A stretch of 64,000 nucleotides of DNA from Streptomyces sp. NBC_00433 (GTDB lineage: Bacteria > Actinomycetota > Actinomycetes > Streptomycetales > Streptomycetaceae), in the NCBI GenBank assembly GCA_036015235.1, contig CP107926.1:1860001-1924000 (forward strand), given 5' to 3'. Under the pieces are notes generated by a model that ran no database searches, was not told the origin of the DNA, and saw nothing but the letters and a program-made list of their open reading frames with translations. The position numbers were made by a program, and so were the translations under genes. Within the stretch, counting starts at the first letter, position 1, and every line of letters starts with the position of its first letter. Positions 1-1,351 of the stretch are shown here, one piece after another.

Positions 1-48
1 CGGGCCGCGCGTGACACGCGGTCGCGCGCCGGCTCCGCTAGAGTCGGT

Positions 49-190
49 GGCGGTCGCGACTGGCGAGGGTGGACCACCACCGGGGAGCGGCCGTCCGCAT
101 CCGTGAGCGTCGACCGCCTGGGCGCCTCCCGTGAACGCAGCCCGTCCGCTCCGCACTTGCGGGGCCGCGGGCTCGGACCGAGGAGGCCGG
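49..190 (+). promoter_or_regulatory. ZTP (pfl-type) riboswitch leader
   Basis: The leader carries the conserved blocks of the pfl/ZTP aptamer in order: GACTGGCG at 58-65, a GGTGG/CCACC hairpin (68-72 with 77-81), GGGGAGCG at 82-89 and CCGCCTGGGC at 114-123. GGTC (52-55) can pair with GGCC (89-92), and TGGCG (61-65) with CGCC (115-118) as the pseudoknot. ZTP riboswitches sense the AICAR derivatives ZMP/ZTP, and the gene behind this one consumes ZMP. GCCTCC at 124-129, just after the aptamer, can pair with GGAGGC at 182-187, which contains the ribosome-binding site, so I infer control of translation start. A TAGAGT hexamer at 39-44 could be the -10 box. The class assignment is strong; the switching mechanism is inference. 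Confidence 0.85.
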
Positions 191-193
191 GAC

Positions 194-1351
194 GTGGAAT
201 TGCGGTACGGAACCAACCCTCAGCAGCACGCGGCGAGCGCCGCGCCGGTGAGCGCGGGCGCATGGCCGGTCCGGGTGGTCAACGGCGAGCCGTCCTACAT
301 CAACCTGCTGGACGCGCTGAGCGGCTGGCAGCTGGTCAGGGAGGCAGCCGGGGCGCTGGGGAGGCCGGCGGCGGCGTCCTTCAAGCACGTCTCGCCCGCC
401 GGAGCCGCGCTCGCCGGCCCGCTCGACCCCGCCACCGCCGCGCTCTACCGCGCCGATCCCGCCGCCGGCCCACTGACCAGCGCCTACGTGCGCGCCAGGG
501 ACGCCGACCCGAAGTCGTCCTACGGTGACCTCGCCGCCGTGTCGCACCCGGTGGACGAGGAACTGGCCGCGTTGCTGGCCCAGGTGGTCTGCGACGGCAT
601 CGTCGCGCCTGGCTATGCGCCGGGCACGGTGGCCGCGCTCCGCCGGAAGAAGAAGGGCCGATTCCTGGTCCTGGAGGCGGACCCGCGGTTCGTGCCGCCG
701 CCGCAGGAGGATCGCGAGGTGCACGGGCTGCGGCTGACCCAGCAGCGCGACGACGTACCGCTGCACACGTCGCTGCTCGACGACGTGGTGTGCGGCGGAC
801 CGCTGCCGGACACCGCCGTGGAGGACCTGCTGCTGGGGCTCGCGGTGGTGCGCTACACCCAGTCCAACTCGGTGTGCTACGTCCGTGACGGCGTCACGCT
901 GGGCATCGGGGCCGGGCAGCAGTCGCGGGTGGACTGCACGCGGCTGGCGGGGGCGAAGGCCGACAGCTGGTGGCTGCGACGGCATCCGGCGGTGTCGGCG
1001 CTGGACTTCGTGCCGGGGATACGCCGCCAGGACCGCGTCAACTGGCACGTGCGCTTCATCGAGGGCGACATGACCGACGACGAACGCCGCCGCTTCGACC
1101 GGGCGCTGGCGGCCCCGGCCGACCCGCTCACGGACGCGCAGCGCCGGGAGTGGGGCGCCCGGCTGACCGGTGTGGCCTTCGCGTCCGACGGAGCCCTGCC
1201 CTTCCGCGACAACGTCGACCACGCGGCCCGCCACGGTGTGCGCTGGATCGCCGAGCCCGGCGGCTCCATCCGTTCGGGTGACGTGGCGGAGGCCTGCCGC
1301 GAGCACGGCATCACGCTGGCGCACACCAGGTTGCGGCTCTTCCGGCACTGA
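194..1351 (+). CDS. Stand-alone AICAR formyltransferase (PurH C-terminal domain type)
   Basis: The protein is 385 aa with only the AICAR transformylase domain; the IMP cyclohydrolase domain of bifunctional PurH is absent. Family motifs are visible: LRYGTNPQQ near the N-terminus, SFKH (the catalytic Lys-His pair) near residue 63, TQSNSV, GQQSR, SDGALPFRDN and EPGGSIRSGD. It should transfer a formyl group from 10-formyl-THF to AICAR (ZMP) in purine synthesis. The GTG start is chosen because AGGAGG lies 7 bases upstream and homology begins immediately; an upstream in-frame ATG at 131 lies inside the riboswitch leader. A normal purH probably exists elsewhere in the genome, so this may be a paralog used when ZMP accumulates. 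Confidence 0.87.
   Translation: MELRYGTNPQQHAASAAPVSAGAWPVRVVNGEPSYINLLDALSGWQLVREAAGALGRPAAASFKHVSPAGAALAGPLDPATAALYRADPAAGPLTSAYVRARDADPKSSYGDLAAVSHPVDEELAALLAQVVCDGIVAPGYAPGTVAALRRKKKGRFLVLEADPRFVPPPQEDREVHGLRLTQQRDDVPLHTSLLDDVVCGGPLPDTAVEDLLLGLAVVRYTQSNSVCYVRDGVTLGIGAGQQSRVDCTRLAGAKADSWWLRRHPAVSALDFVPGIRRQDRVNWHVRFIEGDMTDDERRRFDRALAAPADPLTDAQRREWGARLTGVAFASDGALPFRDNVDHAARHGVRWIAEPGGSIRSGDVAEACREHGITLAHTRLRLFRH

Follow-up and report, generated by a model that had tools for sequence, protein, structure and literature searches.

The leader of a gene encoding a stand-alone phosphoribosylaminoimidazolecarboxamide (AICAR) formyltransferase lies at the start of the window, by which we mean the whole 64,000-nucleotide stretch of Streptomyces sp. 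NBC_00433 DNA that was analyzed. A reading made from the sequence alone (below, the sequence-only reading) had proposed that this leader is a ZTP riboswitch acting at the level of translation, which raises two questions: (i) is the element a genuine member of this class, and (ii) in what way may it control the downstream gene? The answer that we consider likely is that a genuine ZMP/ZTP riboswitch is present here, most probably an ON-switch that acts on the translation of an auxiliary AICAR formyltransferase. The features of the locus are collected in Table 1.

Table 1. Features of the riboswitch locus, in window coordinates.
Feature	Position	Strand	Basis
-10-like hexamer TAGAGT	39-44	+	TANNNT at the same distance in 40/40 related leaders with intact core
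ZMP/ZTP riboswitch aptamer (RF01750)	46-130	+	cmscan, 55.3 bits (cut-off 39)
P1 5' strand (partner 87-95)	49-57	+	Rfam alignment, pair list
Pseudoknot strand GGCG (complementary to CGCC 115-118)	62-65	+	read directly from the sequence
P2 hairpin (69-72 with 77-80)	69-80	+	Rfam alignment
Conserved core (block 2) GGGGAGCG, in which the P1 3' strand begins	82-89	+	sequence, RF01750 match
P3 hairpin (107-111 with 121-125), CGCC in the loop	107-125	+	Rfam alignment, pair list
Anti-SD GCCUCC (124-125 common to P3)	124-129	+	pair probabilities; position kept in 37/37 relatives
Internal stem of the predicted sequestering hairpin (GCAGCCCG...CGGGCUC around CCGC-ACUU-GCGG)	130-181	+	MFE fold
Shine-Dalgarno GGAGGC, sequestered by 124-129 in the predicted fold	182-187	+	sequence, MFE fold, pair probabilities
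Stand-alone AICAR formyltransferase, 385 aa, GTG start	194-1351	+	NF005492, PF01808, PDB 7mgq

The conserved pfl blocks, described earlier as complete, were all found at 58-65 (GACTGGCG), 82-89 and 114-123 (CCGCCTGGGC). The proposed covariance-model check gave a clear result: when the 64-kb window was compared with all Rfam families (cmscan), the ZMP-ZTP model RF01750 was the sole match, aligning over its full length (model positions 1-86) with positions 46-130 of the + strand at 55.3 bits, above the gathering cut-off of 39 bits. The E value was 2.9e-6 in this search and 9.5e-8 when RF01750 alone was scored against the whole genome. A pseudoknot is a known feature of this riboswitch class, and both of its P3-loop strands are present (GGCG at 62-65 and CGCC at 115-118); a purine/one-carbon gene, that of the AICAR formyltransferase (194-1351), follows on the same (+) strand. 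At the level of sequence, the curated model thus confirms the element as a genuine ZMP/ZTP riboswitch, which would be expected to bind the ligand of its class.

The identity of the regulated gene, as named in the sequence-only reading, was also borne out. Its product matches NF005492 over the whole length with 473.4 bits (cut-off 415) and PF01808 with 186 bits, and it aligns solely with residues 217-605 of PDB 7mgq (E 4e-108), i.e. it corresponds to the formyltransferase half of the bifunctional enzymes and contains no IMP cyclohydrolase domain. The sequence retains intact AICARFT motifs (SFKHVSPAG and TQSNSVCY), and residues K64, H65 and N225, presumably the equivalents of the AICARFT catalytic residues (Lys-His and Asn; ATIC/PurH), are invariant among the aligned homologues. 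The protein resembles the NF005492/PRK07106 family of stand-alone enzymes along its entire length, with no difference seen. Six bases separate GGAGGC from the GTG start codon at 194; an upstream in-frame GTG (131) falls within the leader.

The enzyme and its relatives are nearer to the bifunctional chains 7mgq and 1g8m (350-365 bits; the group also has 1p4r), all three of which we take to be eukaryotic, than to 3zzm, 4ehi and other PurH chains (72-114 bits).

A gene on the same strand ends at the start of the window (stop codon at 12-14). The next long coding-like frame downstream (1372-2235, enoyl-CoA-hydratase-like by eye) is located on the opposite strand, so the riboswitch probably serves the AICAR formyltransferase gene alone. 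A TANNNT element is present 19-22 nt before CTGGCG in all 40 leaders with an intact core, against 3.5 expected from shuffles. This conserved -10-like element places the expected transcript start near position 51, in the first bases of P1. A full sigma-70 hexamer pair (with a -35) was not found in the promoter scan, and read-through from the upstream gene may serve as a source of the transcript.

The sequence-only reading had also suggested that the GCCTCC segment following the aptamer can mask the GGAGGC ribosome-binding site. Both segments were found (124-129 and 182-187, respectively), and five of their six predicted pairs have probabilities of 0.97-0.98, the remaining one (124-187) having 0.66. 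The helix that they would form lies at the foot of a larger hairpin (124-187) that has an internal stem of its own. Taken by itself, the SD/anti-SD match of the window was within chance when compared with shuffles: the probability of the SD being unpaired is 0.17, as against a value of 0.33 in shuffled sequences, 12.5% of which were equal or better.

Among related leaders, the match far exceeds chance. The 37 distinct leaders were compared from the P3 loop up to the start codon, and the SD was regarded as folded back when four or more positions of the -17 to -6 zone paired within the 12 nt that directly follow the P3 loop. Fold-back onto the 3' end of the aptamer was observed in all 37, compared with 11.4 +/- 2.5 (maximum 18) for shuffled linkers. 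The sequence of the hairpin differs across the relatives with compensating changes, and this includes the internal stem (130-181 in the window), whose pairing is retained; examples are GCCUCC-G-UCAGC-AGAGAA-GCUGA-GGAGGC in Kutzneria (L088) and GCGCUCCU-GAUCUCG-UAG-CGAGAUG-AGGAGCGC in Nocardia (L091). Folding energies of the leaders average 2.2 standard deviations under those of shuffles, and 35 of 39 leaders have an SD that is less accessible than the mean of the shuffles.

The variable hairpin was not aligned by MAFFT on whole leaders; pairs were tallied from anchored positions instead, and arms were swapped among 20 representatives as a test. Hairpins built from their own arms reached -23.3 kcal/mol, as against -16.8 kcal/mol with swapped arms (permutation p 5e-5), and the anti-SD and SD zone alone also fitted their own partner better than a swapped one (p 0.003), both p-values being approximate because related sequences are not independent.

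These data bear on the view that the SD pairing is a mere by-product of a GC-rich linker lying near a G-rich SD, with regulation absent or decayed in this strain. The window hairpin, not significant against shuffles when considered alone, would fit such a view, as would the decayed aptamers of two relatives (L049 and L050); the fold-back in 37/37 leaders, where 11.4 were expected, speaks against it, and the aptamer core of the window, unlike that of L049 and L050, is intact. We regard this explanation as highly improbable, and translational control by the SD hairpin as well supported by the comparative sequence data.

Another explanation retains the aptamer and assigns its action to transcription termination or Rho, the SD hairpin being secondary. 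Streptomycetes use Rho, and the hairpin at 130-181 is strong. Moreover, the ZTP riboswitches that have been studied in most detail switch transcription on (PMC10085676, PMC7337938). However, no U-tract or terminator-like site was found in positions 1-400 of the window, and termination would not need an SD zone that is paired to the end of the aptamer in every one of the 37 leaders, with compensating changes. This mode of action is therefore unlikely.

The SD hairpin and the aptamer share, and would compete for, bases of helix P3. In all 20 representatives the hairpin recruits between two and five bases from the 3' strand of P3; the overlap in the window amounts to two to three bases (124-125 and perhaps also 122). 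Blocking this strand costs the hairpin 0.9-12.6 kcal/mol across the representatives (7.0 in the window) and makes the SD more accessible in 17 of the 20 (mean accessibility 0.27 to 0.47). On the minimal platform of the window, the probability of an unpaired SD increases from 0.17 to 0.35 upon blocking, and in the full leader, with the whole aptamer forced to fold in a nearest-neighbour model, from 0.01 to 0.04, these effect sizes being estimates from folding models that cannot represent the pseudoknot or a bound ligand.

The models show no full unmasking of the ribosome-binding site by aptamer folding, the SD in the full leader being still paired with the aptamer forced. Judged by these models, the simple picture in which the ligand unmasks the site is incomplete for the window leader. 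With no more than two to three bases in common with P3, the hairpin is one that aptamer folding alone would be expected to weaken without opening. The persistence of SD pairing favours a graded weakening of the hairpin, probably aided by ligand and pseudoknot effects that lie outside the models. The earlier proposal of translational switching is thus supported by the SD pairing (37/37 leaders), the compensating changes and the P3 overlap, and is refined to a probable partial weakening.

The same calculations could be read in the opposite sense, namely that P3, once folded, stabilizes the shortened SD hairpin by stacking on it, the ligand then repressing translation. The SD does stay paired with the aptamer forced to fold, and P3 directly adjoins what remains of the hairpin. 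Such an OFF-switch is nevertheless very unlikely, because in 20/20 representatives the hairpin draws on bases that P3 also needs, and blocking the P3 strand weakens all of these hairpins; in addition, the ZTP riboswitches known so far switch expression on, and it would make little metabolic sense to repress an enzyme that consumes ZMP when ZMP is high. Our inference of the ON direction draws on what is known of the class (PMC2864571, PMC7337938) and on this metabolic logic.

An ON-switch of this kind might operate as follows. In the absence of ligand, the segment that directly follows the aptamer, together with the P3 3' strand, would pair with the SD, generating a covering hairpin. A shortage of 10-formyl-THF would cause ZMP/ZTP to build up, and binding of the ligand would stabilize P3 and the P3-loop pseudoknot. 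The stabilized P3 would remove bases from the foot of the SD hairpin, which the ribosome could then open more easily. The extra formyltransferase would turn ZMP into FAICAR, whose conversion would be completed by the cyclohydrolase of the housekeeping PurH.

The composition of the host genome (8.99 Mb, single contig; closest named relative found, Actinacidiphila epipremni, 85% identity) is relevant to the role of this enzyme. The relative points to Actinacidiphila as the probable genus of the host. A full-length PF01808 match, which was taken to be the housekeeping purH, is encoded elsewhere in the genome, as are two SHMT (glyA) genes. Scoring of RF01750 against the whole genome revealed only two ZTP riboswitches: the one described above and another at C1:8231008-8231097 on the - strand (L002:1501-1590), directly before one of the two glyA genes. 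Because a second enzyme of each kind is present, the AICAR formyltransferase and this glyA are probably spare copies. It is possible, though we put this forward tentatively, that the ZTP riboswitches of this lineage control reserve copies only (the additional AICAR formyltransferase and one glyA), sparing purH and the other glyA, and that by graded SD-hairpin weakening and not full unmasking they constitute an overflow valve for ZMP under folate stress.

The stand-alone enzyme has a patchy distribution, being found in 14 of 35 genomes of the genus, 31 of 200 of the family and 7 of 395 of the class (the window genome included). When the leaders were read for the conserved blocks, with Rfam matches as further support, the aptamer preceding the enzyme was intact in 28 of the 31 family genomes (two decayed, L049 and L050; one without, L037) and present in 6/6 genomes from other families of the class, so that the pairing of aptamer and gene is intact in 34 of 37 sampled actinomycete genomes. 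In an Rfam scan of 60 named loci, the aptamer was directly upstream in all six from Actinacidiphila, Streptomyces, Kutzneria and Nocardia; among the other 54, a same-strand aptamer within about 900 bases was detected in five (L095, L130, L131, L133 and L137). The pairing is near-universal in the sampled actinomycetes and rare elsewhere.

In the case of L049 and L050, the decayed aptamers have lost the CTGGCG core, and the enzymes are altered at otherwise conserved sites (Q224R and C249G in both, N226T also in L050; these numbers come from a separate alignment from that used for K64, H65 and N225). The changes in aptamer and enzyme may reflect either joint decay or a change of function. The enzyme of L037 looks intact, with no ZTP aptamer upstream.

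The element is well supported, yet it is an ordinary representative of a riboswitch class that, like its ligand and gene context, has been known in outline before. A literature search on the pair formed by a ZTP riboswitch and a stand-alone AICAR formyltransferase in Streptomyces returned no title on it among the matches. What the locus adds is (i) comparative support for a translational ZTP platform in actinomycetes, the mechanistic publications found being concerned with transcription, and (ii) the placing of ZTP control on apparent spare copies, which suggests that soil actinomycetes may hold a ZMP-inducible spare formyltransferase, a testable idea on how they cope with folate stress.

The window aptamer is like the ZMP-ZTP riboswitch (pfl motif) RF01750 in its consensus core, P1-P2-P3 architecture, pseudoknot strands and size, and its gene likewise belongs to purine/one-carbon metabolism. 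The usual targets of the class include purH (PMC2864571), whereas the target here is a stand-alone formyltransferase additional to purH, and the expression platform is an SD hairpin, not a terminator. The ZTP riboswitches of Clostridium beijerinckii and Thermosinus control transcription (PMC10085676, PMC7337938); the window leader differs from them in having no visible terminator and a small P3 overlap, but has in common with both the competition between platform and aptamer.
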